DNA of 33,304 bases from Herbinix sp. (GTDB lineage: Bacteria > Bacillota > Clostridia > Lachnospirales > Lachnospiraceae), in contig JAQZBD010000014.1 in assembly GCA_029239235.1 (NCBI GenBank), forward strand, positions 1 to 33,304, in the 5' to 3' direction. Each line of letters starts with the position of its first letter. Position 1 is the stretch's first letter. Below the pieces are notes generated by a model, which saw only the letters and a list, made by a program, of their open reading frames with translations, ran no database searches and was not told the DNA's origin. Both the position numbers and the translations under genes were made by a program. Below are positions 9,747 to 33,304 of this stretch, piece after piece.

Positions 9747-11684
9747 ATGAAATTTAATTTTTTGAGCAAGAGGCGGGATTTGATCGTTATTGATAAGATG
9801 CTGGAATGGGATTTTTCCAACGACTTAGCAGCAACTAGCAGCGTTATTGACGACACACAGCTAACCCTACACAAGAACTACAAGAAGTATTTTGAAAAGT
9901 TTAATGCAGATTTTGAAGAAATTAAACTTGTATCCGATCAATTAGAGGGTGTTGTAGATGGTTTGGTGGATTCCTCAAACAATGTTAAAATGGCTGCAGA
10001 ATTTATTGCGGATGGCGCTCAAAGCCAAACCGAAGAGATTGCAACCTGCCAGTCAATTGCTGATATCATAGCCAATGATATCAACATCATGAGTGACCGC
10101 TCCAAAGAATTGATTGAGTCCGCTCTCGAGATGGGTACAATTAGTAAAAACGGAAAGGTAGCCGTTGAGAATCTATCCGAGAACCAGAACAAAAATCTAG
10201 AAGCAAACAATGCTATCACCAACGAAATCTATGCATTATTAAGTAAAACCCAGGCTATTAACGAAATCACAAAGGTATTATATGATATTGCAAGTCAAAC
10301 AAATCTACTCTCCCTGAACGCTTCCATCGAAGCTGCACGAGCAGGGGAAGCAGGCAAAGGCTTCGCAGTCGTGGCAAATGAGGTTCGTAATCTTGCGGAA
10401 CGAAGCCGCTCTGCCAGTATTACAATTAACGAGAATATCGAAGCTATCAATCAACAGCTGGGAAATTTAAAAACTGTTGCTGATGGATCCAAAGAAATCT
10501 TTAACAATCAGGCAGATGCCGTGAACAAGGTAATTGAGGCCTTTGAAGTAATTAACACTTATGTAGACGGCTTTGTTGCCTGCCAAAAGGAATTCAATTC
10601 TGAATTCCAGGGCTTATCCACAGAAAAAGATCGCCTTATTGATTCCTTCTGCAGTATTGCCTCCGTTATTGAAGAATCCTCTGCAACAACGGAAGAGGTT
10701 GCCTCTTTGACCATTGGTCAAAGCAGTACCGCAAACATCATATTTAAAATGGCACAGGATTTACATACTAAGGTTGATGAGATTGTATCCGACTCTGCAA
10801 ACATAAAAACAAATCATGTTAAATCAGCACAGAAAAAGGTAGCCGCAATCTTTGATATTGATGATCCTTTCTGGATTCCTGCTAGAAAAGAAGGCATTAA
10901 GACAGCAAAGGCACTGAACTATTACATCGAGTTCTTTGCTCCAAAGGATAGGGAAAACGGCGTCAGAGACATGCATGCGGCACTTAAGGATTTTGTGGCA
11001 CGAGATTTTAATGCTATTGTAATTAGTCCGATTGATGCACCTGAGATACAGGCCGCTTTAAAAGAAGCTGCAGATAAAGGCATTAAAATTATCTTTATAA
11101 ATTCAGTATTCGATAATATACCCTATGCTTCCCTGATCGAAACGAATAGCATTGAGCTAGGAAAAAATGCAGCTAAGACCATTAAGCAGCTCATGAATAA
11201 CCAAGGTGAGGTATTCGTAAATCAATGGACGGATGTTAAGATTGCCTCCATTGAAAAACGTGCCGATGGGTTCATGGAGGAACTTAAAAAGAATTCTAGC
11301 ATTGCGGTTCATCCCGTTAAGGTTCTCAGCACTCCTACCGAAGCACAGCTGTCAAAGATGTTTGAATCATTAAAGAAAGAACATCCGGGAGCTAAGACGT
11401 TCTACTGTACCAATGGTGCCTGGGGTGTAGCCCTTGGTGAATATGTAGGAAAGCATCATCTTGATTTCGATGTTATTACTACTGATCTGCGTGCAGATGT
11501 TGCAGATCTCATTAAGAAGGGCAGGATTAAAGCTGCTATCTCCCAGAGACCTTTCACCTGGGTTACTATGGCTCTTGAGATCCTCACCGATGTATTCAAT
11601 AATAAGCCTGTTGTTAAATATACCGATACCGGAACTTACGAAGTCAACAAATCAAATATCTCCATTTACGAAAAGAGAATTTAG
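9747..11684 (+). CDS. Soluble chemoreceptor with C-terminal sugar-binding-protein domain
   Basis: A 645-residue protein combining a methyl-accepting chemotaxis signalling domain with a ribose-binding-protein-like domain. Residues about 50-350 are long helices with the CheA/CheW-binding tip around residues 181-220 ([20 protein letters not shown], then [16 protein letters not shown]). From about 362 to the end follows a type I periplasmic-binding fold: [14 protein letters not shown] at the start, [17 protein letters not shown], and a C-terminal half from [17 protein letters not shown]. No signal peptide or membrane helix is visible, so the sensor domain should be cytoplasmic and placed after the signalling domain, the reverse of classical receptors. 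GAGGTG lies before the ATG. The gene stands alone between a sigma-28 promoter and a terminator. The ligand is unknown; an intracellular sugar is the obvious guess. Confidence 0.88.
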
Positions 11685-11755: not shown

Positions 11756-12703
11756 CTATTCTGTTATCTCTACCCCGCCATTCTTACCAAGCCCTTCATA
11801 ATATACGTTACCGGAACGATCAGAAAACCTTACCTTAACAATGGCGTTCATGCTCTCTACGATTGTTCTGCTCATGTTTCCATCTACTGGGGCTAATAGC
11901 TTACCGCCTTGCCCATAGTAAGCCGTTATGTCCAGTCGGAATCTGCAATCAACTAAGGTAAGATACAATTTATTGTCACTGGTGTAGAGTGTTTTGATCT
12001 TCGCACCGGTATATGTGGTAAACATAAAGATACGATCCTGAAATCGGAACATCCCCACGAATCCAACAAAGCTGCCTAGCATGTAAGGAATATCACCAAT
12101 ATTAATGGATAAGGACACGTCATCATCTCCAAAATGGTTCGACTGAATCCAAACCCAGGATTTTGGCATAGAGCGTCCCCAGTTCTTCTCCAGATACCCT
12201 TTTCCATCCGTGTAATTAATCTTTTTCCCCGAAGCCTTAAGATGTCCAACAATTTTATGCTGTATATTGATAATGTCCATATAGCATTCCATACAGGGAT
12301 TATAAAGAAACGGTCCCATAACTCCTGGTTTTAAGCAGGTCGTAGGGTACTCCAGAATATCACAAAAATACAAGTCTCCCTGCAGGCTAAAATCCTCACC
12401 AACAAGGTTTAATCGAATTCTAGACTTTGAAAAATAATTGTCACCAATCATTATTTCAAATTTCTTCGAATTAAACTGAAACTCACTAATCTCGAAATTA
12501 AACTGAGTTACTTTATGATTCTGATGAAGAACTTGAATAAAAGCATGTGAAGTCCATTTTCCCATCGCGATTCCTGGTATGATGGCATATGAATTTTTAC
12601 CTTTTTTGTCTGTAATTTTATAATACCAGCCCTCAAAGTAACGTTGGTTTTTATATTTCCCTTGAAACATCGCCGGTTTCTTTATTTTACATAACCTATA
12701 CAT
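11756..12703 (-). CDS. Tocopherol cyclase-like protein
   Basis: A 315-residue protein of the tocopherol cyclase-like family (PF14249). Visible family blocks are FEGWYYKITD near residue 23, PGVMGPFLYNPCMECY near 127, GYLEKNWGRSMPKSWVWIQ near 169 and QSNHF right after it. In plants and cyanobacteria the family includes the enzyme closing the chromanol ring of vitamin E; an anaerobic Firmicute would not be expected to make tocopherol, so the actual substrate is unknown. No signal peptide or membrane helix is seen. The ATG at 12703 has GAGGAT 9 bases upstream. It is downstream of the O-antigen-ligase-like gene on the same strand with a gap of about 100 bases, possibly one transcript. Confidence 0.82.
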   Translation of the reverse strand: MYRLCKIKKPAMFQGKYKNQRYFEGWYYKITDKKGKNSYAIIPGIAMGKWTSHAFIQVLHQNHKVTQFNFEISEFQFNSKKFEIMIGDNYFSKSRIRLNLVGEDFSLQGDLYFCDILEYPTTCLKPGVMGPFLYNPCMECYMDIINIQHKIVGHLKASGKKINYTDGKGYLEKNWGRSMPKSWVWIQSNHFGDDDVSLSINIGDIPYMLGSFVGFVGMFRFQDRIFMFTTYTGAKIKTLYTSDNKLYLTLVDCRFRLDITAYYGQGGKLLAPVDGNMSRTIVESMNAIVKVRFSDRSGNVYYEGLGKNGGVEITE

Positions 12704-22235: not shown

Positions 22236-23279
22236 TTATTTCAAATATTGATCAACATTATCCTTCGTGATAAGTACGAAAGGAATCATATATGATTTTT
22301 CAACTGCCTGCCCCTGTGCTGCTGCCACACCTGTTTCAATTCCTTTTACTACCTGACTTGCGCCGTCCTGATATACTGTCGCCAGTAATTCCCCATTCTG
22401 AACCATTGTCATCGGACCAACATTACCGTCTACACCGATACATACAATGTCGGATCTTCCTGCTGCATTCATTGCGGTCTGCACTGCTGAGGACATATCA
22501 TCATTATCACAGATAATTGCATTTAACTTATCGCCATACTTTGCAAGCCAGTCTTCTGCGAACTTAACTGCTTTTTCAGCCTGCCATTCCGCTGTTTGCT
22601 CAGCGCCATCTAATAAAGCCCATTTCGAATCTCCATCCAGAACATTATGGATTCCTTCACCACGCTGAATTTGAGCAGAATTACCAATGATACCTTGTAG
22701 ATGTCCGTAACCACCGCCGCCTGGAATCTGCTTTTGAACAAATTCAGCCATCATTTCACCGGCTTGAACGTCATCAGAACCAACAAAGGCAGTAGCCAGC
22801 TCATCCGTGTTATCCGTCTTTGAGTTTACTACAATAATAGGAACTCCCTCTTCCGCACATCTTTCCAGAATCGGTGAACATCCTGCTGATTCTGCCGGTA
22901 GTAAAACAATGAGGTTGCAACCCATATTTAAAGCATCTTCCAATAAATTGCATTGTGTTACCGGATCCGTTAACCCATCTAATAGCTTCCAATCCTTAAT
23001 CGTACCGTTTGCTTTTAACTCATCTAATTTTTCAGAAGCTGCCTTGTTCAGTGTTGAATGGAAAGCATCCACTGTATTCTTCGCGATGTAACCTACTACG
23101 ATATCTTTTTGAGCTGGTTCTGCCTGCTCTGTTGTATCCGTGGTAGCTGTGGTTGGTTGTGTAGCATCATCCTTTGTCGGTGTATTCGTTGTAGTTTCTG
23201 AAGTCTTTCCCCCACATCCTGTAAGCACTACCATGCATACAACTAATACGAGTACCATAAGCTTTCTGATTTGTTTCAT
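22236..23279 (-). CDS. Sugar ABC transporter substrate-binding lipoprotein
   Basis: Ribose/galactose-type binding lipoprotein, 347 residues, that would capture the sugar of the locus. The N-terminus has a signal peptide with lipobox LTGC (acylated Cys22), then a Thr-rich linker to about residue 57. The type I binding fold begins at KDIVVGYIAKNTVDAFHSTL and continues with CNLIVLLPAESAGCSPILERC, VGSDDVQAGEMMAEF, AIICDNDDMSSAVQTAM and IGVDGNVGPMTMV. It is the last gene of the ABC operon, 85 bases after the permease, with a stem-loop in between. The sugar is unknown; binding-pocket residues would have to be compared with characterised proteins. Confidence 0.93.
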   Translation of the reverse strand: MKQIRKLMVLVLVVCMVVLTGCGGKTSETTTNTPTKDDATQPTTATTDTTEQAEPAQKDIVVGYIAKNTVDAFHSTLNKAASEKLDELKANGTIKDWKLLDGLTDPVTQCNLLEDALNMGCNLIVLLPAESAGCSPILERCAEEGVPIIVVNSKTDNTDELATAFVGSDDVQAGEMMAEFVQKQIPGGGGYGHLQGIIGNSAQIQRGEGIHNVLDGDSKWALLDGAEQTAEWQAEKAVKFAEDWLAKYGDKLNAIICDNDDMSSAVQTAMNAAGRSDIVCIGVDGNVGPMTMVQNGELLATVYQDGASQVVKGIETGVAAAQGQAVEKSYMIPFVLITKDNVDQYLK

Positions 23280-23311
23280 ACCCTAACCTCCTATTATTAT
23301 TACTCTATCTC

Positions 23312-23330
23312 TAATTCGCTTAGCGAATTA
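23312..23330 (-). other. Palindromic stem-loop between permease and binding-protein genes
   Basis: TAATTCGCT (23312-23320), one T, then AGCGAATTA (23322-23330), a perfect 9-base inverted repeat. It lies in the 85-base gap upstream of the binding-protein ribosome site. It could be an RNA processing/stabilising stem-loop or an operator. Confidence 0.65.
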
Positions 23331-23364
23331 AATACTATAATGTAAAACCTATATCTCATTTGGT

Positions 23365-24357
23365 CTACTTCCTTTTATTCATCACCATATCCAGCATAAC
23401 TGCACCAATGATCAATAAGCCCTTGGTTATTGTTTGCCAATAAGAGTTGATTCCAACCAAATTCATACCGTTATAAATCAGACCTATAATTACAATACCC
23501 ATTACCGTACCGGGGATGGTGGAAACACCGCCCGCAAAGGAGGTTCCGCCGATCACACAAGCTGCAATAGCATCTGTTTCATACCCTACACCGATATTTG
23601 GCTGAGCTGCGCTGATCCGGCTGGTCATGATGATCCCTGCGATACCGCAGCAAAAGCCGGATATGATATAGGTACCTGCCGTTGTCCAGAATACATTAAC
23701 ACCGGAAGCGATTGCTGCATTCTTATTTCCGCCCACAGCATACACATAACGTCCAAACTTGGTCCAATGAAGTATCACATAGGCAAGGATCGCTACAACA
23801 GTAAGAATTATGACCGGGTAAGGTATGACTCCGAATAGCTTTCCTGCTCCAATCTCTTTAAACTCCGCATTTGCCAAGGATTGAGAGTAACCGCCGGAAA
23901 TGATATAGGCCGTACCACGGATCACCAATTGTGTTGCAAGGGTAACCACAAAGGGGAACATTTTAAACTTTGCAATGAGAATACCATTTAATAAACCAAA
24001 CACTGTAGTAGCCGCGACTGATACAACACAAGCCAGAACAATACTTCCAGTCGCATTCAGCATTGCCCCTATTATTACGCTGGTCAGAGCAAGCAAGGAA
24101 CCGATGGACAAATCGATACCTCCGCCTGTGATTACAAATACCATACCAAGGGCAAGGATACCATTGAGAGAAACCTGTAATAGAATACTGATTACATTGC
24201 CGCTGGTGCGGAAGGTGGGAGAAACAATAGCCAGAATAACCGCCATTATTACCATAACCATGCCAATACCATAGCGTCTCATAAATAGATTAAATTCAAT
24301 TTCAGACATACCAAATCTAATACTTTCGGATGCGGCATTCGCTGATTTCCTGCTCAT
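23365..24357 (-). CDS. Sugar ABC transporter permease (RbsC-like)
   Basis: Membrane subunit of the importer, 330 residues, BPD_transp_2 family, with about eight to ten helices. The family motif LALGMVFVITGGGIDLSIGSLLAL is near residue 75, and AYIISGGYSQSLANAEF near 155 and VIGGTSFAGGVSTIPGT near 262 are the outer loop and coupling-helix regions. The ATG at 24357 lies four bases after the ATPase stop, with GGAGG inside the ATPase end; a TTG 14 codons upstream is less likely. No truncation is seen. It works with the ATPase and the downstream lipoprotein. Confidence 0.92.
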   Translation of the reverse strand: MSRKSANAASESIRFGMSEIEFNLFMRRYGIGMVMVIMAVILAIVSPTFRTSGNVISILLQVSLNGILALGMVFVITGGGIDLSIGSLLALTSVIIGAMLNATGSIVLACVVSVAATTVFGLLNGILIAKFKMFPFVVTLATQLVIRGTAYIISGGYSQSLANAEFKEIGAGKLFGVIPYPVIILTVVAILAYVILHWTKFGRYVYAVGGNKNAAIASGVNVFWTTAGTYIISGFCCGIAGIIMTSRISAAQPNIGVGYETDAIAACVIGGTSFAGGVSTIPGTVMGIVIIGLIYNGMNLVGINSYWQTITKGLLIIGAVMLDMVMNKRK

Positions 24358-24361
24358 TTCA

Positions 24362-25891
24362 CTACTTTCCTCCTTCTTTTTGCCCAAACTCTTTCGCAAG
24401 TATATCTTCTTGTGTCACTTTTGCAGTTGTAATATCCTCACGGAATATTTCTCCATTGATTCTTCCCTCATGATAAATCAGGATTCGATCACTGGTGCCC
24501 ATAATCTCCGGCAGTTCAGAGGAAATCATTATAATTGCCATTCCCTGGGCTGCAAACTGGCACATGAGTGTATGGATTTCTGATTTCGCTCCCACATCCA
24601 CACCCCTTGTAGGCTCATCAAGAATTAACACCTTTGGCTTTGCCATCACCCATTTGGAAAGCACCACTTTCTGCTGGTTACCACCGCTGAGGGAATAAGC
24701 CTCCGATTCAATACTTGCGGCTTTTACCGTTAACACCTTCGCTACCTCTTCCGCTTCCTTCTTCTCTCTCCTTTGGTTGATTAAGATACCCTTTTGACGA
24801 GATGGAAGGTTAGGCAGAGAGATATTCTCTCTGATTGATCGATACAGACATAATCCGAAATTCTGGCGATCTTCATTTACCATGCAGATTCCTTTTGAGA
24901 TGGCATCCTTAGGACTTTTTATCGCTATTTCTTTGCCGCCTAGAAAGATCTTACCGCCGGTCTTCGGATCCAATCCAAAGATAACTCTCATGGTCTCACT
25001 CCTGCCTGAGCCAACCAGACCGCTGATTCCAAGTATTTCTCCCTCATGGACCTCAAAGCTGATATTTTGAAAGCCCTTGCCCGATAAATTTTCTACCTTC
25101 AGAACAGTTTCACCGATCTCACACTCGATTTTAGGGAATATGCTTTTCACCTGTCTTCCCACCATCATCGCGATTAATTCCTCATTTGTAACTCCTTCCA
25201 GCGGACAGGAATTCACATATTCGCCGTCACGGAATACGGACACTCTATCACAAATTTCAAAGATCTCTTCCATTCGATGGGAGATATAGATAATGGATAC
25301 TCCTTTTTCCTTCAGCTCCCTTATCGTATGAAACAAATGCTGTGTTTCTTCACTATCCAGTGAGGACGTAGGTTCATCCATGATTATGATTCTGGCATCG
25401 CAGGAAACTGCTCGGATGATCTCTATCATTTGCACCTCAGCCAGAGTTAGCTCTTCCATTAAGGTTCTGGGATCTTTCTCGATTCCAAAACGCTTTAATA
25501 TGATTCCTGCCTGCCGGTTCGTCTCCTTTTTATTAAGAAAGGGTAAGCCTTTCATGGTATGTTCTCTGTTTAGGAAGATACTCTCTGCGATTGATAAATG
25601 GGGCTCCGGATTTAATTCCTGATGTACCATGGAGATACCCTTGCGCAAGGCATCCGCCGGTCCGTTGGCAGCGTAGCGCTGTCCTTCAAACACCATTTCC
25701 CCCTCATCCGGTTTATGTAAGCCAATCACAATCTTCATTAAGGTAGATTTCCCGGCGCCGTTTTCACCGAGCAATGCGTGTACCTCACCCTTTTTAATCT
25801 GCAGCTGAACATTTTTCAGAGCCTGTGTGCCACCAAAGGCTTTACTGATTCCAGTGCATTCTAATATGTAATCCTTATTTTGCTCTTCCAA
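24362..25891 (-). CDS. Sugar ABC transporter ATPase (RbsA/MglA-like, two domains)
   Basis: Double-domain ATPase of about 509 residues driving the importer. The first domain has Walker A GENGAGKST, a degenerate signature (LTLAEVQMIEI) and Walker B IIIMDEPTSSLD. The second has GLVGSGRSE in place of a full Walker A, the intact signature YSLSGGNQQKV, and VLILDEPTRGVDVG. This arrangement, one degenerate site each, is normal for the RbsA class. The start is uncertain: GTG at 25900 overlaps the GGAGGTGAG site, so TTG at 25891, eight bases after GGAGG, is preferred. The 338 bases upstream, to the kinase gene, may hold its own promoter. Confidence 0.92.
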   Translation of the reverse strand: MEEQNKDYILECTGISKAFGGTQALKNVQLQIKKGEVHALLGENGAGKSTLMKIVIGLHKPDEGEMVFEGQRYAANGPADALRKGISMVHQELNPEPHLSIAESIFLNREHTMKGLPFLNKKETNRQAGIILKRFGIEKDPRTLMEELTLAEVQMIEIIRAVSCDARIIIMDEPTSSLDSEETQHLFHTIRELKEKGVSIIYISHRMEEIFEICDRVSVFRDGEYVNSCPLEGVTNEELIAMMVGRQVKSIFPKIECEIGETVLKVENLSGKGFQNISFEVHEGEILGISGLVGSGRSETMRVIFGLDPKTGGKIFLGGKEIAIKSPKDAISKGICMVNEDRQNFGLCLYRSIRENISLPNLPSRQKGILINQRREKKEAEEVAKVLTVKAASIESEAYSLSGGNQQKVVLSKWVMAKPKVLILDEPTRGVDVGAKSEIHTLMCQFAAQGMAIIMISSELPEIMGTSDRILIYHEGRINGEIFREDITTAKVTQEDILAKEFGQKEGGK

Positions 25892-26010
25892 AAATCTCAC
25901 CTCCGGTTTTGCTTGCGTTCTCCCTGCCTAGTTCCGTCACATGCTGTAGTATTTCTTCATTGCTTTGGTAGGGCATGAAAAACAGCCGCAGTTCTGAGTT
26001 TCACAACCAC

Positions 26011-26193
26011 CTAATCAATCATGATTTTAGTCATAGGTTCTTTTATTCCAGTTATATTAATACTCCCCTCACCGGAGTTATGTAAATATTTTACTGTTAG
26101 TGACAAAAATAAAAAATGATATCCAACAGCAAAGGCAGATGCAATTATTTTTATCTGCTTACGTTTTGCCAGTAGAGCAATCATTTCTATCAT
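26011..26193 (-). CDS. Possible small membrane protein of 60 residues
   Basis: An open frame in the gap between the kinase and ABC genes. It has AAGGA just upstream of the ATG (or at better spacing before a second ATG at codon 4) and one hydrophobic segment (IIASAFAVGYHFLFLSLTV). I recognise no family. A possible minus-strand promoter lies inside it, which argues against it. Low confidence. Confidence 0.2.
   Translation of the reverse strand: MIEMIALLAKRKQIKIIASAFAVGYHFLFLSLTVKYLHNSGEGSINITGIKEPMTKIMID
26116..26144 (-). promoter_or_regulatory. Possible promoter of the ABC transporter genes
   Basis: Minus-strand TTGCAT (26144-26139), a 17-base spacer and TATCAT (26121-26116), in the 338-base gap before the ATPase gene. 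Two mismatches in the -35 and one in the -10. If real, importer genes can be expressed apart from the upstream aldolase-regulator-kinase genes. Confidence 0.35.
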
Positions 26194-26229
26194 TATCCTT
26201 CATCCTTTTGTAATTACGGATATTTCCGC

Positions 26230-27675
26230 TTAATGCAGAAATCCTAATTGCATTCCTGCAACAAAGGTATCCCCAAGACCGATGGTATCCACAGGGTGCT
26301 CCATGTATCTTGATGGAACCAAACAGACAAATTGATTCCCATTATCGGTCATTCTGCCGCTAGGCAGCTTAATATCTGATGTGAAATTATTTTCCATTCC
26401 CATACTAACGATCTTTCGGCCGTGAGGTCGTTCAAAGTCGGATGTGGAAACTCTTTTTGTTTCCACCGTTAGCTCCTCCAACTCCTGAGCTAACTTCATT
26501 CCAACAGGGCTTAAGGGGAGTTCCAGACTCTCTTCACAATCCTGATAGCTGCCATATCTCCCAATTCTCGCTTTGGTTCCTGACATGAGATTTCCTAGGG
26601 TTAAGCCTTTTTCAATATTAGCCTTCTCCACCTTTTCACCATAGTACATGGAGTAATCCTTGGTGTGCATTACAATTCCCTTGACCGGATAGGCGCTTCT
26701 CACCAATTCCAGTCCCGAAAGTACGGATTCCAGATTATCCTCATTCACCATCCTGCCCTGTTCCTTACACAGATCCACCAGTTCTTCCCCATTCATGCCC
26801 AGAATATCGATACATTCTGAAAGAGCCAGGAACACATAATCCTTACAGGCTGAGTTCAAATAATGAGCACCCTCGAAATATATTCTGCAATCCGGATTCC
26901 TCCCCTTGAACTTAAAGTAATGCGCTTTCAGCTCTGCCACTCTTTTCTTTAAAACCTCTAAATCCGTTATAGCATTAAATCCTGATATATTATAAGAATA
27001 AAACTTATCTGCATTTTGCTCACAATAGATTAGAAACTCGGGATCAACGGGCAAATGGGAATGAATATGGTCATAATCCAGAATCAATCGGTTCGATACC
27101 GGTATTACATATTTTTCTCCGCCTATCAGCACGATATCTCCCTTGTTGTATTGCAGAATCATATGGCAAACTGGGGCCTCTTTTGATGCAGCCCTGCTTG
27201 CAGGAAGTAATTCACCTTTGGAGAATATGGAGAGCTTTGGATAATTCATAAATTCGCATACTGCATTGCTCCTGTCAGTAATATGTGCCACCAACGGAAC
27301 CCCCAGGGCACCTAGAGCTGCTGCCCCCTGGGCACAAGTCCCTCCCAGAGCCGGATAGGTCTCAAACAAACTCTGCAGATATTCACAGACCCGAATATCC
27401 GTAACATTGATTTCTCCACCTAAGCCATGAATCACATAATAACTGACGATACGCGCGAAGCTTCTTACATCACAAATATAGTCATGTTCCTGCGTTCGTG
27501 GTTGATCCACCAAATAGTCAGCTATCATTTGATTAAATTTATGTATATCCCATTTCATCAGTATATCCAGATCACTCGTATAACCAAAGACCGTGTAATG
27601 ACCTGTTTTATCCGCTGTATCCAGACATTGGGGCAAATCCTCTAAATATAGTTTGTATTTGTCCAGATAGGGCAT
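26230..27675 (-). CDS. ADP-dependent glucokinase/phosphofructokinase family kinase
   Basis: A 481-residue protein that I place in the ADP-dependent sugar kinase family (PF04587), a ribokinase-fold group best known from archaea and animals. Supporting blocks are GGTCAQGAAALGALGVP near 111-127, CHMILQYNKGD near 170, NRLILDYDHIHSHLP, the SGFNAI strand near 234 and, at the C-terminus, DTIGLGDTFVAG at 463-474 with the catalytic-type Asp469 in GLGD. The length is right for the family (about 450-500). The ATG at 27675 has GGGAGG five bases upstream. It would phosphorylate an imported sugar or sugar phosphate with ADP as donor. Sugar specificity is unknown, and some bacterial members may have changed donor. 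Confidence 0.75.
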   Translation of the reverse strand: MPYLDKYKLYLEDLPQCLDTADKTGHYTVFGYTSDLDILMKWDIHKFNQMIADYLVDQPRTQEHDYICDVRSFARIVSYYVIHGLGGEINVTDIRVCEYLQSLFETYPALGGTCAQGAAALGALGVPLVAHITDRSNAVCEFMNYPKLSIFSKGELLPASRAASKEAPVCHMILQYNKGDIVLIGGEKYVIPVSNRLILDYDHIHSHLPVDPEFLIYCEQNADKFYSYNISGFNAITDLEVLKKRVAELKAHYFKFKGRNPDCRIYFEGAHYLNSACKDYVFLALSECIDILGMNGEELVDLCKEQGRMVNEDNLESVLSGLELVRSAYPVKGIVMHTKDYSMYYGEKVEKANIEKGLTLGNLMSGTKARIGRYGSYQDCEESLELPLSPVGMKLAQELEELTVETKRVSTSDFERPHGRKIVSMGMENNFTSDIKLPSGRMTDNGNQFVCLVPSRYMEHPVDTIGLGDTFVAGMQLGFLH

Positions 27676-27690
27676 AACTACCTCCCTGCT

Positions 27691-28533
27691 CTAAAGTTTA
27701 TATTCTGCAAGCATAACCTCCGGTGCATCAATATCTGCATCTGTATGAAAATTTCCATTTGATACATAGTATAGCAGTGCATCAATAACAGCCATCTCAT
27801 TCAGATGAGAATTCTTTCCATAATCTTCAAATAGAGGTTTGTTTTCCTTTGAAAGCAATAAATAATCTGCTAACTTTGAAACCGGTGAATATTCAGCGCC
27901 TGTGATTGCTATAATCTTTAATTTCTTTTCTTTCGCAAGCTCCATGGCCTGAACCACCTGCTTTGATGTGCCGGAGTGGGAAACTGCGATGACAATATCA
28001 TCTTCTTTTGCAAGATTAATATGATTAAAAAAATACTCTGATATTGTATTATAAGTGGCATGAATGCCCGAACGTCCTAAACGAAAGCCCAGATCCATGA
28101 TCAGGGGACTTGTATTGCCTACGGCAACCAGATGAACGATATTGCAATGATTAATTAAGTCAGCACATGCCTGTAAATTTTCTATGTTAAGGTGATCCAA
28201 TAATCCTAAAACATTGCCTGCAATCCTGCTGAATAAGTCTTTCAAGGTTCCTGTGGCTTCCTCCTGTGACATATCACCCGTATCTGCCTGCTTTCTGCCT
28301 AAGTCATGGGACAGAAAGATTCTCATTTGGTAATAGCCCTGATATCCGATATGCTTACACATTCGAATAATGGTTGCGTCACTTACCTGGCTGAAATTAG
28401 CTAGTTCTGATACATTGGCATTCACTGCCTTTTCCGGATTTTGCAGGATAAAATCTGCAACTTTCTTCTCCGCAGCGAACATCTGATCATAATTTTCCTT
28501 AATTGTCTCAATTACAGATTTCTTTTCGCTCAT
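27691..28533 (-). CDS. RpiR/MurR family transcriptional regulator
   Basis: Sugar-phosphate-responsive regulator of about 280 residues. The N-terminal 80 residues are an HTH_6 domain (FAAEKKVADFILQNPEKAV, then LANFSQVSDATIIRMCKHIG). The C-terminal half is a SIS domain with VAVGNTSPLIMDLGFRL near 140 and AVSHSGTSKQVVQAMELAK near 187, the usual phosphosugar-binding loops. An ATG four codons upstream is also possible but has the purine run directly against it. The gene sits between aldolase and kinase in the minus arm, so its ligand is probably an intermediate of this pathway. The palindromes in the divergent promoter region are its likely targets. Confidence 0.92.
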   Translation of the reverse strand: MSEKKSVIETIKENYDQMFAAEKKVADFILQNPEKAVNANVSELANFSQVSDATIIRMCKHIGYQGYYQMRIFLSHDLGRKQADTGDMSQEEATGTLKDLFSRIAGNVLGLLDHLNIENLQACADLINHCNIVHLVAVGNTSPLIMDLGFRLGRSGIHATYNTISEYFFNHINLAKEDDIVIAVSHSGTSKQVVQAMELAKEKKLKIIAITGAEYSPVSKLADYLLLSKENKPLFEDYGKNSHLNEMAVIDALLYYVSNGNFHTDADIDAPEVMLAEYKL

Positions 28534-28565
28534 GATGTATTTCATCCCTTTCGTACTGGCAATTT

Positions 28566-29435
28566 TTACAAACTATAATATCTCATTTTATCGAAATCAT
28601 TAAATAAGTCAATCTTTTGATTAATAACTTGTTTCATCACATCGATACTTTCGAGATAAAGTTCAAAGGGTTCTCTCACTTTCTTATCCCTGCCTAAGGT
28701 GATTCTTAATTGCTGATAAAAAGCGTCCTTAATATCCGAGGAGATATTAATCTTATTCACACCGCGTTTTACACTTTCAGCAATCTCCTCATCCGGATTT
28801 GCGGAGCCGCCATGCAATACCAAGGGGATGCTTACCTTTGATTTAATCTCCGATAAAAGATCTAATTTCAGCTCCGGTTTAAAATCTTTCGGATAGATAC
28901 CATGGGCGGTTCCGATTGCAATTGCCAGGGTATCAACGCCGGTCTCTTCTACAAAACGAACTGCATCATCGGGCTTTGTATAGATGATCTCCTCTGTACC
29001 ACCCTCTGCATCATTTCCTGTAGTGCCAATCGTACCAAGTTCTCCTTCAACAGAAATACCAAGGGGATGGGCTAACTCTACCACCTTTTTTGTGATTGCT
29101 ACATTTTCTTCAAAGGAGTAATGGGACGCATCGATCATTACGGATGTAAAGCCTGTATGTACTGCTTTTAAAATCTGCTCCAGTTTACTGCCATGGTCTA
29201 AATGAATTGCCATTGGCACCTTAGAGGCGTGAGCTGCAGCCAAACAGCCGGCAACAAAATGGTCTCCCTGAAAGTTAAGTTCCGACGGATGGATCGCCAG
29301 GATAACCGGAGCCTTTCGTTCTTCACAGCATTCAATGACTGCTTTTAGAATCTGCCCCGTCCCTATATTAAAAGCAGGAACCGCAAAATAATTCTTATTC
29401 GCCACATCCAGTAATTCCTTCATGTTCATTAGCAT
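28566..29435 (-). CDS. Class II ketose-bisphosphate aldolase
   Basis: Zinc-dependent aldolase of the fructose/tagatose-bisphosphate family, 289 residues, which cleaves a ketose 1,6-bisphosphate to DHAP and an aldehyde (phosphate). Active-site marks are AIHLDHG near residue 80 (catalytic Asp and zinc His), SVEGELG, the zinc His of IGTAHGIY near 175 and LHGGSA near 206. The C-terminal KINISSDIKDAF is the DHAP phosphate loop. The ATG at 29435 is chosen because AAGGAGG lies eight bases upstream; a promoter -10 box covers the longer alternative start. It heads the minus arm. GatY/KbaY-like substrate preference or another ketose cannot be told by eye. Confidence 0.92.
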   Translation of the reverse strand: MLMNMKELLDVANKNYFAVPAFNIGTGQILKAVIECCEERKAPVILAIHPSELNFQGDHFVAGCLAAAHASKVPMAIHLDHGSKLEQILKAVHTGFTSVMIDASHYSFEENVAITKKVVELAHPLGISVEGELGTIGTTGNDAEGGTEEIIYTKPDDAVRFVEETGVDTLAIAIGTAHGIYPKDFKPELKLDLLSEIKSKVSIPLVLHGGSANPDEEIAESVKRGVNKINISSDIKDAFYQQLRITLGRDKKVREPFELYLESIDVMKQVINQKIDLFNDFDKMRYYSL

Positions 29436-29475
29436 AATGAAATCCTCCTTGCCTCGTTTGAGATTTGATAAACTA

Positions 29476-29504
29476 AGCATATATTAATTTCCTAATATTG
29501 TCAA
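29476..29504 (-). promoter_or_regulatory. Sigma-A promoter of the aldolase-regulator-kinase arm
   Basis: Minus-strand TTGACA (29504-29499), a 17-base spacer and TATGCT (29481-29476). It gives a leader of about 30-35 bases to the aldolase ATG at 29435. An operator-like half site abuts it upstream at 29511. Confidence 0.8.
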
Positions 29505-29510
29505 TCCCTT

Positions 29511-29527
29511 ATGAAATAAAATTTTTT
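29511..29527. promoter_or_regulatory. Operator-like half site ATGAAATAA next to the minus promoter
   Basis: The nine bases ATGAAATAA repeat the left arm of the perfect palindrome at 29638, followed by an imperfect right half (AATTTTTT). It lies six bases upstream of the minus-strand -35 box. A second binding site for the RpiR regulator is the natural guess. Confidence 0.45.
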
Positions 29528-29637
29528 TACATGTCGTTTTCTTCACTTTAATATCATATTATTGGTTATATTCTATAATTTTATCTTACTGTTTATCTTG
29601 TCTTTTGTTCAAATGCTATGCTAATATGTTGGCATAC

Positions 29638-29654
29638 ATGAAATAATATTTCAT
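29638..29654. promoter_or_regulatory. Operator candidate ATGAAATAATATTTCAT
   Basis: A perfect palindrome with 8-base arms around one central base, in the 280-base divergent region and 62 bases before the cupin ATG. TGAAA...TTTCA symmetry is common among RpiR-type operators. A weak plus-strand promoter (TTGGCA at 29629-29634, TACAAT at 29654-29659, 19-base spacer) would overlap it, which fits repression. Confidence 0.65.
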
Positions 29655-29715
29655 ACAATACTAATGACAACTAACAACTCGTTAATTATATATCAGAAAA
29701 AAATGGAGGTTTCAT

Positions 29716-30918
29716 ATGACAAAAACAATTCAGGAACTATTTGAACAAGGAAAAGGCGTATTACAGCTAACCCCCACCTGGGTACCGAGAGGCTTTAATG
29801 AGCCTGGCCACAGACTTCGCTTACATCCTGACGACTACTATGCCCTTGGAATGGAACGGGGAGGTATCTGCGAACGCTGGCTAGGCTCGGTCACAGTTGC
29901 CTTAAACGGCCCAAAAACCGGACCAACAGAGGGCATGAGTTTTGTACTTGCAGATCCTAAGACCAAGGAAAAAATATTATTTGCTGATGCTGTAAAGGAG
30001 CTTGGCGAAAAGCTAATCGGAAAAAGTCTTCAGGATAACTACGGTACCTGGCCTACCTTTGCAAAGCTATATGACTATGACAAACCCTTATTTCATCATC
30101 TTCATCTAACAGAAGAAAAAGCAAATAAGATCGGCAAGCATGGAAAACCGGAGGCTTACTACTTCCCAATCCAATACAATTCCTATCTGGGCAGATTCCC
30201 ATTGACCTATTTTGGCTTCGACCCCTCAACAGACCCGGAGGAGGTTAAGAACTGTATCCGAAACTATGACAAATCAGATACCCGGATCACCGAATTATCC
30301 AGAGCCTATAGAATCCAGCTAGGTACCGGCTGGTATACCCCCGCCGGTGTAATTCATGCTCCTGCGTCTGTTGTTACATATGAACCACAATGGAATAGTG
30401 ATGTTAACACAATTATGGAGAATGTTACCATGGGCGAAGTTAATGCCCACCATCTCTTAACAGACTGCCAGGCACCGGAAGAAAGGGACGATGTAGAAGC
30501 ACTATTCTCCCAGATCGATTGGGAAGAAAGCGCACGCCCGGATTATAAGGAGGTATACTTTCGTGCACCAAGAGAGCTGAACCACACCCAGGATGGCTTG
30601 CTCGAAAAATGGGTGGCCTATGCTAATGACTGGGTAGCTGCGAAGGAGGTTACAGTTGCGCCTAACTCCCAGGTTATATTAAGAGATGGTGCTTGCTACT
30701 GCGCTCTTGTTGTTCAGGGTTATGGTAAATTTGGTGAATTCGATTGTGAAGCCCCTGGATTACTACGCTTTGAAGACCTCTCCGGAGATGAATTCTTTGT
30801 ATCGGAAGCTGCAGCGCAGGAGGGAATTAGGATTACAAATCACAGCAATTATGAGCCTTTAATTATTTTACAGAATTTCGCCAATAACAATCCCGAGGTT
30901 CCTACCTCTGTAAGATAA
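29716..30918 (+). CDS. Phosphomannose-isomerase-like cupin protein
   Basis: A 400-residue protein resembling type I mannose-6-phosphate isomerases: two cupin-like halves with a metal site. Probable ligands are His128 and His130 in FHHLHLTEE, Glu146 in HGKPEAYYFP, and His214 in YTPAGVIHAP, in the order seen in PMI (QxH, E, H). It would interconvert an aldose and a ketose, free or phosphorylated. GGAGG precedes the ATG. It is the first gene of the plus arm, 37 bases before the epimerase gene. It is clearly not the standard ManA by sequence feel, and its neighbours suggest a dedicated rare-sugar isomerase. No signal peptide is seen. Confidence 0.72.
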   Translation: MTKTIQELFEQGKGVLQLTPTWVPRGFNEPGHRLRLHPDDYYALGMERGGICERWLGSVTVALNGPKTGPTEGMSFVLADPKTKEKILFADAVKELGEKLIGKSLQDNYGTWPTFAKLYDYDKPLFHHLHLTEEKANKIGKHGKPEAYYFPIQYNSYLGRFPLTYFGFDPSTDPEEVKNCIRNYDKSDTRITELSRAYRIQLGTGWYTPAGVIHAPASVVTYEPQWNSDVNTIMENVTMGEVNAHHLLTDCQAPEERDDVEALFSQIDWEESARPDYKEVYFRAPRELNHTQDGLLEKWVAYANDWVAAKEVTVAPNSQVILRDGACYCALVVQGYGKFGEFDCEAPGLLRFEDLSGDEFFVSEAAAQEGIRITNHSNYEPLIILQNFANNNPEVPTSVR

Positions 30919-30954
30919 GGCTTAAGAGAAAATAATGATAACAGGAGGTTTCCT

Positions 30955-31812
30955 ATGAATAATAAATTTGGTGTTGATTCCTTTATCTGGACTGAGAATT
31001 TCTCATCCCAGGATTTATGGATTATAGAAAAGGCAAAGAACCTTGGCTTTCAAGTAATCGATTTTGCTATTTCGAATCCCTTTACTTTTCCTACAGAGGT
31101 AGTAAAGGCTGAATTAGAACGGGTTGGTATCGACTGCGTATGCACCACCACCCTAACCTTAGAGACTAATCCCATCTCCCCTGATCCTCAAATTAGAAAG
31201 CAGGCTGTCACTGCTATGAAAAAAGCTGTTGACATCTGCAATTCCCTTCAGTCACCCATACTTGGCGGAGTTAATTATGCTGCCTGGGGTTACCTAACAA
31301 AACAGCCTAGAACACAGCAGGAATGGCAATGGGCTGTGGAATGTATGCAGGAAGCCGCAGATTACGCAAAGGAAACAGGAACCGTAAAAATCTGTGTGGA
31401 ATGCATCAATCGCTTTGAAACTCATTTCCTAAACATCGCGGAGGATGCTGTAGCCTTCTGTAAAGACGTTGGAACCGATAACATGATGGTGCATTTGGAC
31501 TGCTTTCATATGAACATGGAGGAAAGTAACTTCACCGCTGCTGTAGAGGTCTGCGGTAAAGAGTATTTAGGTTACGTTCATGTAAATGAAAATAACCGCG
31601 GTATTCCAGGCACCGGCTTAGTTCCCTTTCAGGAATTCTTTACCGCACTAAAAAATATCGGCTATGATGGTCCCTTAGTAATTGAATCCTTCGATCCTAA
31701 CTTTAAAGAACTTGCTGGTAATTGTGCAATCTGGCGTAAGCTTGCTGATACCGGAGAAGAACTTGCTGTTAAGGGGCTTGCAAATCTATTAGCTATTGCC
31801 GGCACGATCTGA
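30955..31812 (+). CDS. Ketose 3-epimerase family TIM-barrel protein
   Basis: A 285-residue member of the AP-endonuclease-2-type sugar isomerase/epimerase family, most like D-tagatose/D-allulose 3-epimerases. The four metal ligands of that family are all present at matching spacing: Glu149 in VECINRFETHFLN, Asp182 in HLDCFHMN, His209 in YVHVNENNRG and Glu244 in IESFD. The GIPGTG loop after the His is also typical. The enzyme would invert carbon 3 of a ketose. AGGAGG lies seven bases before the ATG. On a tetrulose the same reaction would interconvert D- and L-erythrulose, so chain length cannot be assumed from the family. Confidence 0.85.
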   Translation: MNNKFGVDSFIWTENFSSQDLWIIEKAKNLGFQVIDFAISNPFTFPTEVVKAELERVGIDCVCTTTLTLETNPISPDPQIRKQAVTAMKKAVDICNSLQSPILGGVNYAAWGYLTKQPRTQQEWQWAVECMQEAADYAKETGTVKICVECINRFETHFLNIAEDAVAFCKDVGTDNMMVHLDCFHMNMEESNFTAAVEVCGKEYLGYVHVNENNRGIPGTGLVPFQEFFTALKNIGYDGPLVIESFDPNFKELAGNCAIWRKLADTGEELAVKGLANLLAIAGTI

Positions 31813-31820
31813 TTAACCTT

Positions 31821-31845
31821 AATTTTAATAGACTGAATTTTAATA
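31821..31845. repeat. Short direct repeat AATTTTAATA, 15-base period
   Basis: AATTTTAATA at 31821-31830 and 31836-31845, each followed within a base or two by GACT, in the 78-base gap between the epimerase and RpiB-like genes. No function is evident. Confidence 0.5.
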
Positions 31846-31890
31846 AGACTTGTTTTTATAGACCATTATAAAATATGGAGGAATGATAAT

Positions 31891-32346
31891 ATGAAAATAG
31901 CGATCGGCTGTGATGAAGCCGGATATGGATTAAAACAGATTCTTATAAAATCGCTCCAAAACAGGGATATTGAACTAACAGACTTTGGATGCTACGACGA
32001 AAGTCCCGTACTATATCCGGAAGTCGGGCACGATGTTGCCCGAGCTGTAGCTGACGGAACGTTTGAGCGGGGTATCCTCATCTGCGGCACCGGAATCGGA
32101 ATGAGCATTACCGCCAATAAAATTCCCGGAATACGTGCCGCAGTCTGCCACGATTCCTTCTCCGCTAACAGATCCCGCAGCTCCAATAATGCTCAGATCC
32201 TATGTTTGGGTGCCAGAGTGATTGGGTCAGAGCTGGCAAAGGACATTGTAAACATTTGGATGTCACATGATTTTAGCGGAGGTCTCAGCACCGCAAAAGT
32301 TGATAAAATCAAAGAAATTGAAGAAATTTATATCAATCGCTGTTAA
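31891..32346 (+). CDS. RpiB/LacAB family sugar-phosphate isomerase, atypical active site
   Basis: A 151-residue aldose-ketose phosphate isomerase of the RpiB/LacAB family. The catalytic loop is intact: Cys65 in ICGTGIGMS with Thr67, and NKIPGIRAA after it. Two positions differ from ribose-5-phosphate isomerase B. The N-terminal DH.G motif is DEAG here (Glu9 for His), and the ring-opening His of the SR.HN motif is Ser98 (SRSSNN). This suggests a substrate other than ribose 5-phosphate. Homologues such as EryI act on D-erythrulose 4-phosphate, a linear sugar phosphate needing no ring opening. GGAGG precedes the ATG. It lies between the epimerase and DhaK-like genes on the same strand. Confidence 0.88.
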   Translation: MKIAIGCDEAGYGLKQILIKSLQNRDIELTDFGCYDESPVLYPEVGHDVARAVADGTFERGILICGTGIGMSITANKIPGIRAAVCHDSFSANRSRSSNNAQILCLGARVIGSELAKDIVNIWMSHDFSGGLSTAKVDKIKEIEEIYINRC

Positions 32347-32388
32347 AGGTCGTATCCCTAGCATCCAAAGTCACGAAAGGAGTTTTCT

Positions 32389-33304
32389 ATGAATCGATTT
32401 GTAAATGATCCAAACTTTGTTGTTGAAGATATGCTGCATGGTTTTGTTAAGGCACATAACAGTTTTATCGATGTCACTGACAATCCCAGAGTATTAAAAT
32501 ATAAGCCTGCTCCCATCGCCGGAAAAGTGGGCGTGGTAACCGGCGGCGGCTCCGGCCACAAGCCAGCATTTATCGGATACATAGGTAAAAACATGTGTGA
32601 CGCCGCAGCCGTAGGAGAAATCTTCTCCTCTCCAACCGCCCAGGCGTTCTACGATGCCTTTAAGGTAAGCGACTCCGGTCAGGGTGTTGCCTGCCTGTAC
32701 GGCAATTACGCCGGCGATAATATGAATGTTAAAATGGCAATTCGTATGGCGAAAAAGGACGGCATTACCGTGAAAACCGTTGTTGCAAACGATGATGTTG
32801 CCTCCGCTTCTAAGGAGGAGCAGGAAAAACGACGTGGTGTAGCCGGCGAAGTATTTCTTTGGAAAATCGGTGGAGCGAAGGCTTCCAAAGGTGCATCCCT
32901 GGATGAGGTAATTGCCGCAGCACAAAAAGCGATTAATCATACCAGAAGTGTTGGTATTGGTACCGCCCCCTGCACCATTCCTGCCGTGGGACACCCCAAT
33001 TTTGAGATTAAGGATGGTACCATGGAGGTGGGCATCGGCCATCACGGAGAACCGGGCATCAGCGTTCAGCCCCTGAAAACTGCAAATGAAGTTGCAGAGC
33101 AAATGCTGGATATCATACTGCCCGACCTACCCTTTGAAGCCGGGGATGAAGTAGCTGTCTTATTATCCGGATTAGGTGCCACACCGGTTATGGAGCAATA
33201 CATCATCTATAATCATGTTGAAGAACTTCTTAGGGAAAAGGGCATTCATATTTATCGCTCCTATGTTGGCAACTATTTCACCTCTTTGGAGATGATGGGT
33301 GCAA
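32389..33304 (+). CDS. Dihydroxyacetone kinase family, DhaK-type subunit (cut by window edge)
   Basis: The first 305 codons of a DhaK-type ketose kinase; the end is outside the window. Seen are GGGSGHKPAF near residue 47-56 (phosphate loop with His), NYAGDNMNV near 107, VANDDVA and KRRGVAGE near 125-145, the GIGHHGEPGI motif near 219 whose second His aligns with the one that binds the ketose covalently as a hemiaminal, and GLGATP, YRSYVGNYFTSLEM at the end. AAAGGAG precedes the ATG at 32389. If the gene ends at about 330 codons it is a stand-alone DhaK needing DhaL; if about 570, an ATP-dependent fused kinase. In tetritol pathways such kinases act on erythrulose, so dihydroxyacetone need not be the substrate. 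Confidence 0.88.
   Translation, partial: MNRFVNDPNFVVEDMLHGFVKAHNSFIDVTDNPRVLKYKPAPIAGKVGVVTGGGSGHKPAFIGYIGKNMCDAAAVGEIFSSPTAQAFYDAFKVSDSGQGVACLYGNYAGDNMNVKMAIRMAKKDGITVKTVVANDDVASASKEEQEKRRGVAGEVFLWKIGGAKASKGASLDEVIAAAQKAINHTRSVGIGTAPCTIPAVGHPNFEIKDGTMEVGIGHHGEPGISVQPLKTANEVAEQMLDIILPDLPFEAGDEVAVLLSGLGATPVMEQYIIYNHVEELLREKGIHIYRSYVGNYFTSLEMMGA

Follow-up and report, generated by a model that had tools for sequence, protein, structure and literature searches.

A divergent sugar locus of Herbinix sp. with a possible pathway of ketose cleavage and tetrose salvage

We analysed one entire contig of Herbinix sp. (JAQZBD010000014.1, 33,304 nt, here called the window), which ends in a divergent sugar-utilisation locus of ten genes. 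Arm 1 comprises the minus-strand genes for an importer, an ADP-dependent kinase (ADP-kinase), an RpiR regulator and an aldolase, and arm 2 the plus-strand genes for a cupin, an epimerase, an RpiB-like protein and DhaK. An earlier sequence-only reading had named the families of all ten genes, and these calls were confirmed by open reading frame (ORF) and Pfam/NCBIfam profile searches and, for the cupin, by a structure model. It had also taken both arms for one pathway, which is supported by the comparison with other genomes described below. The contig ends inside dhaK. The features of the locus are the following, where PMI stands for phosphomannose isomerase and DHAP for dihydroxyacetone phosphate.

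22236 to 23279, minus strand: sugar-binding lipoprotein of a ribose-type (CUT2) importer (PF13407)
23365 to 24399, minus strand: importer permease (PF02653)
24362 to 25900, minus strand: importer ATPase with two ABC domains (PF00005)
26230 to 27675, minus strand: protein of the ADP-dependent sugar kinase family, a proposed ketose 1-kinase (PF04587)
27691 to 28545, minus strand: RpiR-type regulator (PF01418 and PF01380)
28566 to 29480, minus strand: class II aldolase of the NF006042 subfamily, proposed DHAP-releasing ketose-1-phosphate aldolase (PF01116, NF006042)
29512 to 29526, no strand: imperfect second palindrome copy with 2 mismatches, close to the aldolase start
29639 to 29653, no strand: palindrome TGAAATAATATTTCA, situated between the arms as a proposed operator for RpiR
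29716 to 30918, plus strand: PMI-fold cupin of 400 amino acids, proposed aldose-ketose isomerase (tetrose to erythrulose; structure model, hhalign)
30955 to 31812, plus strand: ketose 3-epimerase, proposed L-/D-erythrulose 3-epimerase (PF01261)
31891 to 32346, plus strand: RpiB-like isomerase, proposed D-erythrulose-4-phosphate isomerase (PF02502)
32389 to 33304, plus strand: DhaK, incomplete at the contig end (PF02733)

The genomic neighbourhoods were compared at the cupin loci, a check that had been named beforehand for the unity of the arms. The genome scan gave 204 confirmed cupin relatives, and the best 80 of these, excluding the window, were used for the counts. Neighbouring genes were counted by tblastn with identity thresholds that we set ourselves, and the families were checked on one representative each. 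The loci form a clade A (42 loci, 72-82% identity to the cupin) and a clade B (38 loci, 50-56%). In clade A, the aldolase was found at 24 loci, the ADP-kinase at 20, the epimerase at 19, a close DhaK at 20 and another DhaK type at 10; a close RpiB was present at 17, another RpiB type at 4, an XylB-type kinase at 14, a triosephosphate isomerase (TIM) family gene at 6 and a FucI-like isomerase at 5. DhaL accompanied the close DhaK in 20/20 cases, and dhaL is expected as the next gene past the contig end of the window. None of the aldolase, ADP-kinase, epimerase, DhaK, RpiB, XylB-type, TIM or FucI-like genes was found at the 38 clade B loci, which had FGGY (28), L-fucose mutarotase (25), UlaE (18) and AraD (15) genes. 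The clade B cupins (L091-L128), standing with FGGY kinase, L-ribulose-5-phosphate 3-epimerase, AraD and L-fucose mutarotase, are perhaps a separate, L-xylulose-type pentose isomerase. At L062 and L081 the cupin lies close to proteins of the GH127, GH38 and DUF6259 types, each type checked on a single representative, which suggests that in some species the sugar comes from a glycoside.

At least one gene from each arm was present at 15 of the 42 clade A loci, so that the arms are not rarely together; 9 loci had arm 1 only and 18 had arm 2 only, many of them on short contigs. Seventeen of the 18 genomes with arm 2 only were searched for the missing arm (L089 was omitted). When the epimerase was present, 10/10 genomes carried the ADP-kinase (E 1e-40) and a 60-64% identical aldolase elsewhere, whereas without the epimerase the ADP-kinase was found in 0/7 searched genomes at this threshold and the best aldolases reached 43% at most. 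Among 299 genomes of the family, the kinase (E 0.001) occurred in 20, the aldolase (E 1e-95) in 20 and both in 18 (Fisher p=1e-24), with 14 of the 20 kinases found at 1e-40. Close cupins (at least 68%) occurred in 7 of the 299 genomes, and 6 of the 7 also had kinase and aldolase, one of them by a weak kinase match. The co-occurrence is strong, though the p values are too small because the genomes are related. Close relatives of the cupin are found in Diplocloster agilis, Kineothrix alysoides, Muricomes intestini, Extibacter muris and Flexilinea flocculi, of which Diplocloster has both arms and the epimerase. The gene set is common to distant anaerobes.

The divergent promoter contains TGAAATAATATTTCA at 29639-29653, the sole exact match to TGAAATNNNATTTCA within the window; with up to one mismatch, three matches were found against 0.38 expected. 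Upstream regions of 300 bases were scanned for the arms TGAAAT and ATTTCA with spacers of 2-5 and compared with 20 mononucleotide shuffles each, allowing up to 2 mismatches. Of the unlinked loci, the scan took in 8 of the 9 aldolases from the group with the epimerase and 8 of the 9 RpiR-kinase operons. The palindrome preceded the unlinked aldolases in 8/8 cases (shuffled 12%) and the cupin-adjacent aldolases in 14/18 (shuffled 23%); when the latter were split post hoc, it was present at 14/14 aldolases divergent from the cupin and at 0/4 others (L050, L052, L054, L063). It was found before 1/8 cupins with FucI or other DhaK sets and before 3/37 clade B cupins.

Some results count against a single pathway. 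Only 4/8 unlinked RpiR-kinase operons had the palindrome (shuffled 19%), and among the unlinked cupin operons it was seen at 0/9 (shuffled 14%). Since nine of the kinases from the ten unlinked genomes are 77-100% identical to a reference from one of these genomes (the tenth 34%), the ten are related and do not count as independent. Of the 20 kinase matches in the family genomes, several are weak, with 22-27% identity. From the upstream counts, the aldolase appears to be under one regulator, which probably controls the kinase operon as well, and the cupin operon of the unlinked genomes appears to be under some other control.

For arm 1, the best PDB sequence matches of the binding protein were 4yo7, 4rs3, 5hko and 4rsm, sugar-binding proteins of ABC importers; these PDB relatives were all of low identity and indicated no ligand. 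We take three of the four to be M. smegmatis proteins with polyol ligands. Copies of the importer ATPase (67-75% identity) occur in relatives that have the ADP-kinase. The kinase scored 102.9 bits with PF04587 (cutoff 27), which places it in the ADP-dependent phosphofructokinase (PFK)/glucokinase family, and 114.6 with the ADP-dependent glucokinase model NF010642, below the curated score of 387. In an alignment with positions assigned by hand, it retains E90 and D36 and has V169, H171 and D202 in place of the ADP-PFK signature K179/N181/R212 (AncMsPFK numbering). In the available portion of PMC7948494, PFKs and bifunctional enzymes share K179, N181 and R212 as conserved residues, whereas E90 is the one conserved among glucokinases and bifunctional enzymes. 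By this rule, since E90 is kept and the other three are lost, the substrate of the ADP-kinase is probably a free sugar. The aldolase matched PF01116 and scored 431.1 bits with NF006042, above the cutoff of 405. Kinase and aldolase also occur without the cupin, at L134-L136 with XylB and the same importer type and at L137-L140 with other importers. At one of the latter (L139, G104), a D-lyxose isomerase (PF07385) shares the operon with ADP-kinase, aldolase and RpiR.

The cupin matched no model in NCBIfam, nor any in Pfam when the threshold was relaxed to E 10. A first structure model, from 31 sequences, was of too low quality; most of its matches were short cupins, with a small archaeal phosphomannose isomerase among them. 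With 69 sequences, leaving out copies with an internal stop (L077, L081) or partial length (L089), a usable model was obtained, with a mean pLDDT of 72 and a low-quality central region. Its 17 best PDB matches were all type I phosphomannose isomerase chains (E 3e-13 to 2e-9, TM score 0.5-0.6 by query length), representing four proteins and mostly mutants of one, and bore out the earlier label of a PMI-like cupin. By hhalign, 53 columns at the metal motif were aligned with E. coli ManA (E 6.5e-4, probability only 27%), setting the HLH motif of the cupin on the QVH motif of ManA; comparisons with the PF07385 lyxose isomerase and with the bicupin of L143 gave no result. The residues H128, H130, E146 and H214 are invariant across the 69 sequences. 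On the structure-model matches and the motif alignment, the cupin is modelled as a PMI-fold protein with an invariant set of three histidines and one glutamate.

For arm 2, the best PDB matches of the epimerase were ketose 3-epimerases, and its score with the D-psicose/allulose 3-epimerase model NF051856 was 189.2, below the curated score of 300. Three histidines of true RpiB, visible in 3he8, are H10, H99 and H134 in E. coli numbering and serve in ring opening and at the phosphate site; the 2vvr chain, with N at position 99 as printed, is presumably a mutant. All three are absent from the RpiB-like protein of the window. H10 and H99 were absent in 20/20 aligned RpiB-like rows including the window (two rows are one gene), and position 134 was serine in 6/6 family proteins shown and in 5ifz. 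The latter likewise lacks all three histidines and scores 255.9 with the D-erythrulose-4-phosphate isomerase model (NF051858, cutoff 240); in both 5ifz and the window protein H10 is lost and H99 and H134 are replaced by serine. With NF051858 the window protein scored 167.5 and with rpiB 158.9 bits, compared with 133.2 and 210.4 for the true RpiB 3he8, and only the broad subfamily model NF004051 scored higher than NF051858.

DhaK belongs to its family by PF02733 and is 71% identical to the DhaK of a DthD-type operon on C105 of the window's genome (L048), where a GolD/DthD-family dehydrogenase (349.3, cutoff 286) adjoins DhaK, DhaL and an RpiB of 63% identity. By analogy, this operon has the D-threitol layout. 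Relatives of this DhaK type are also found next to a FucI-like isomerase or a zinc dehydrogenase, so that one ketose seems to be the meeting point of several routes. In all, three more DhaK loci are found in the same genome (L048 and L155 on C105, L147 on C19), with GolD/DthD dehydrogenase, with zinc dehydrogenase and with DhaL and RpiB, and the organism seems rich in tetrulose-type routes. Judged by these signatures, arm 2 likely performs four-carbon (tetrulose) chemistry.

The epimerase is missing from 23 clade A loci, of which 11 carry another DhaK type and/or TIM, and it was never found together with this alternative set (0/42 loci, p=3e-4). LerI is presumably a TIM-family protein. For the known tetritol pathways, the accessible text of PMC10733421 describes that LerK phosphorylates L-erythrulose at C1 and that LerI and DerI then lead to erythrose-4-phosphate; the available part of PMC5992420 also deals with such pathways. 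Both gene sets would therefore fit L-erythrulose as the cupin product.

We tentatively favour, without calling it probable, one pathway of two modules in which a ketose-1-phosphate is cleaved and the tetrose fragment is salvaged to D-erythrose-4-phosphate. The gene families, their linkage and the residue signatures are observed, whereas every reaction is inferred. The CUT2 importer would bring the sugar into the cell, the ADP-kinase would phosphorylate the free ketose at C1, and the class II aldolase would split the ketose-1-phosphate into DHAP and a free aldehyde, the tetrose. The cupin would then convert the tetrose to L-erythrulose, the epimerase would turn this into D-erythrulose, and DhaK with DhaL would form D-erythrulose-4-phosphate. 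The RpiB-like isomerase would finally yield D-erythrose-4-phosphate, which enters normal metabolism.

The order of the two modules is suggested by the locus L143 (G170:C110), which has a regulator with an EIIA domain of the phosphotransferase system (PTS), the aldolase, another cupin (305 amino acids), the epimerase (74%), RpiB, DhaK, DhaL and a final ORF resembling the EIIA of the G155 cluster. In G155, an 86% identical cupin and a 71% identical aldolase flank five ORFs with the appearance of a PTS of the fructose type that includes its own EI and HPr. These PTS parts were judged by eye, and the family search confirms only the EIIA domain of the regulator. A PTS would deliver its sugar in phosphorylated form, so that at L143 the aldolase would act first. 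The free-sugar enzymes (cupin, epimerase and DhaK) most likely have the aldehyde from the aldolase cleavage as their substrate and not the imported sugar. The sequence-only reading had the imported sugar isomerised and epimerised in the free state, then phosphorylated and cleaved; the order is probably a different one. Since a 3-epimerase is needed, the aldolase product should have at least four carbons, and if it has four and the other product is DHAP, the imported sugar would be a C7 ketose or its corresponding aldose; a heptose or heptulose may be the substrate.

A specific version would start from the series of L-glycero-D-manno-heptose, the lipopolysaccharide core heptose, or L-galacto-heptulose (perseulose). 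The ADP-kinase would turn the heptulose into heptulose-1-phosphate, and this would be cleaved to DHAP and L-threose, followed by L-erythrulose, D-erythrulose, D-erythrulose-4-phosphate and D-erythrose-4-phosphate. In our hand-worked stereochemistry each window enzyme would be used once and the need for an L- to D-erythrulose epimerase would be accounted for. We regard this version as a long shot; if true, it would, to our knowledge, be a novel type of heptose catabolism and include the first tetrose isomerase.

Several observations weigh against cleavage followed by tetrose salvage. No gene in the locus marks a heptulose as the substrate. The RpiB-like protein stays below the curated score of NF051858 (167.5 against 240) and exceeds the rpiB cutoff of TIGR01120 (158.9 against 138.65), though the three histidines are absent. 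In the aldolase, compared by eye, the lysine of SSDIK is common to GatY, a bisphosphate-cutting enzyme, and the site with serine in FbaA and threonine in GatY is histidine; the residues at both sites do not settle between mono- and bisphosphate specificity. An XylB-type FGGY kinase, without a necessary role in the scheme, occurs at 14/42 clade A loci (one representative tested, 504.7 bits against the XylB cutoff of 380), clade B cupins sit with pentulose enzymes, and a FucI-like isomerase, natural for D-arabinose, occurs at 5/42 loci, 4 of the 5 without the epimerase, and elsewhere beside the same DhaK type.

The last three points would be accommodated by a pentose, a substrate we consider unlikely. 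The cupin would then be a D-lyxose-type isomerase giving D-xylulose, which XylB, where present, would convert to D-xylulose-5-phosphate; the epimerase would give D-ribulose, DhaK-DhaL would phosphorylate it and RpiB would form ribose-5-phosphate, while ADP-kinase and aldolase would act on a pentulose-1-phosphate (DHAP and glycolaldehyde). The XylB-type kinases carry a QMHG motif and are accompanied by the ADP-kinase in 14/14 cases, the clade B neighbours are of the UlaE/AraD/FGGY kind, FucI-like isomerases adjoin the same DhaK type, and the L139 operon includes a D-lyxose isomerase with ADP-kinase and aldolase. However, one ketose would have three parallel fates within one gene set, the RpiB-like protein lacks the three histidines, and the free-sugar enzymes of L143 would be left without a substrate if the sugar arrives by the PTS. 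The window has no XylB kinase, and in its genome (93% complete) the best FGGY protein is only 39% identical to the linked XylB type. We know of no DhaK-type pentulose kinase.

Direct uptake of a tetrose, erythrulose or tetritol product, which arm 2 would convert to erythrose-4-phosphate, is quite unlikely. It would agree with the four-carbon signatures of arm 2, with the nearest solved relatives of the binding protein and with a distant cupin of Arthrobacter (30%) that adjoins a DhaKL-RpiB-TIM-alcohol dehydrogenase locus. ADP-kinase and aldolase would have to split part of the sugar, erythrulose-1-phosphate giving DHAP and formaldehyde, yet the pair is also found with other importers and without the cupin, and no formaldehyde-handling gene was present among the annotated genes. 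Even more doubtful is a rare hexose or hexulose cleaved to DHAP and glyceraldehyde, with salvage of the triose by DhaK-DhaL as in the mammalian fructose route. The loci L053 and L059, where the other DhaK type adjoins the aldolase, and L076 with DhaK and TIM would suit it, but a triose leaves the 3-epimerase and RpiB without a role and the gene order of L143 speaks against it. That the arms are two unrelated pathways, divergent neighbours by chance, is hardly credible: the 9 loci with arm 1 only and the 18 with arm 2 only would fit, but not the presence of arm 1 elsewhere in all ten epimerase-bearing genomes and in none of the seven others searched.

Other candidates were dropped. A sedoheptulose-bisphosphate bypass, with the ADP-kinase as sedoheptulose-7-phosphate kinase and substituting for transaldolase, was an early idea that was abandoned when the residues by which ADP-PFKs bind phosphate proved to be absent from the kinase, and in a triose salvage route the epimerase and RpiB would have no role. 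From the sugars listed by the sequence-only reading, tetrose or erythrulose chemistry is retained as likely on the RpiB and DhaK signatures, whereas allulose was given up with the epimerase below the psicose-epimerase cutoff, and apiose with neither transketolase nor FGGY kinase in the window and a different gene set in the available part of PMC13001218.

Elsewhere in the window, the plus-strand gene at 9747-11684 encodes a protein of 645 amino acids in which residues 153-305 form a methyl-accepting chemotaxis protein signalling domain and residues 371-620, towards the C-terminus, a sugar-binding Peripla_BP_4 domain. This domain order is unusual, and the protein is only weakly similar to the binding protein of the locus. 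A Tocopherol_cycl (PF14249) protein is encoded at 11756-12703 on the minus strand, in the genome of a member of an anaerobe family, and a full-length DUF4914 protein at 5149-7026 on the plus strand.

Tetrose catabolism is called unsolved in the accessible part of PMC12780249. The locus supplies named candidates for a tetrose isomerase, a free-erythrulose epimerase and a DhaK-type kinase, and strong co-occurrence predicts the DHAP aldolase as a partner of the bacterial ADP-dependent kinase. Should the sugar be a heptose, the locus would reveal how anaerobes recycle C7 sugars of envelopes or plants. The component families are known; what would be new is their combination, together with the reactions on tetroses that we propose for the cupin and the epimerase. 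The earlier statement that no pathway with this set has been described was sustained: work on tetritols, apiose and ADP-kinases was found and no description of this gene set, a weak negative because the search was limited to open-licence papers.

Type I mannose-6-phosphate isomerase has its fold in common with the cupin, as far as a structure model of moderate quality goes, but ManA has QxH where hhalign places the HxH of the cupin, and no family model matches the cupin. E. coli YdjH/YdjI (octuluronate kinase and 1-phosphate aldolase) likewise combines a sugar kinase with a class II aldolase acting on a 1-phosphate; the window kinase is of the ADP-dependent family and the aldolase is 36% identical. 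The apiose kinase is presumably of the FGGY family. The D-apiose pathway, as described in the available part of PMC13001218 (apsI isomerase, aplK kinase, aptA/aptB transketolase), also handles an uncommon plant sugar by an isomerase and then a kinase, but the window has neither an FGGY-type kinase nor the AptAB transketolase. Compared with threitol and erythritol catabolism (DthD/DerK/DerI), the ten window genes include no polyol dehydrogenase, though L048 of the same genome has one, and add a cupin isomerase, a free-sugar epimerase, an ADP-kinase and an aldolase. The Brucella erythritol pathway (EryA-B-C-H-I), in the part of PMC5992420 available, also has a tetrulose racemase/epimerase and an RpiB-type isomerase; there, phosphorylation and oxidation come first, whereas the window, which has no EryA/EryB-type gene, would epimerise the free ketose.

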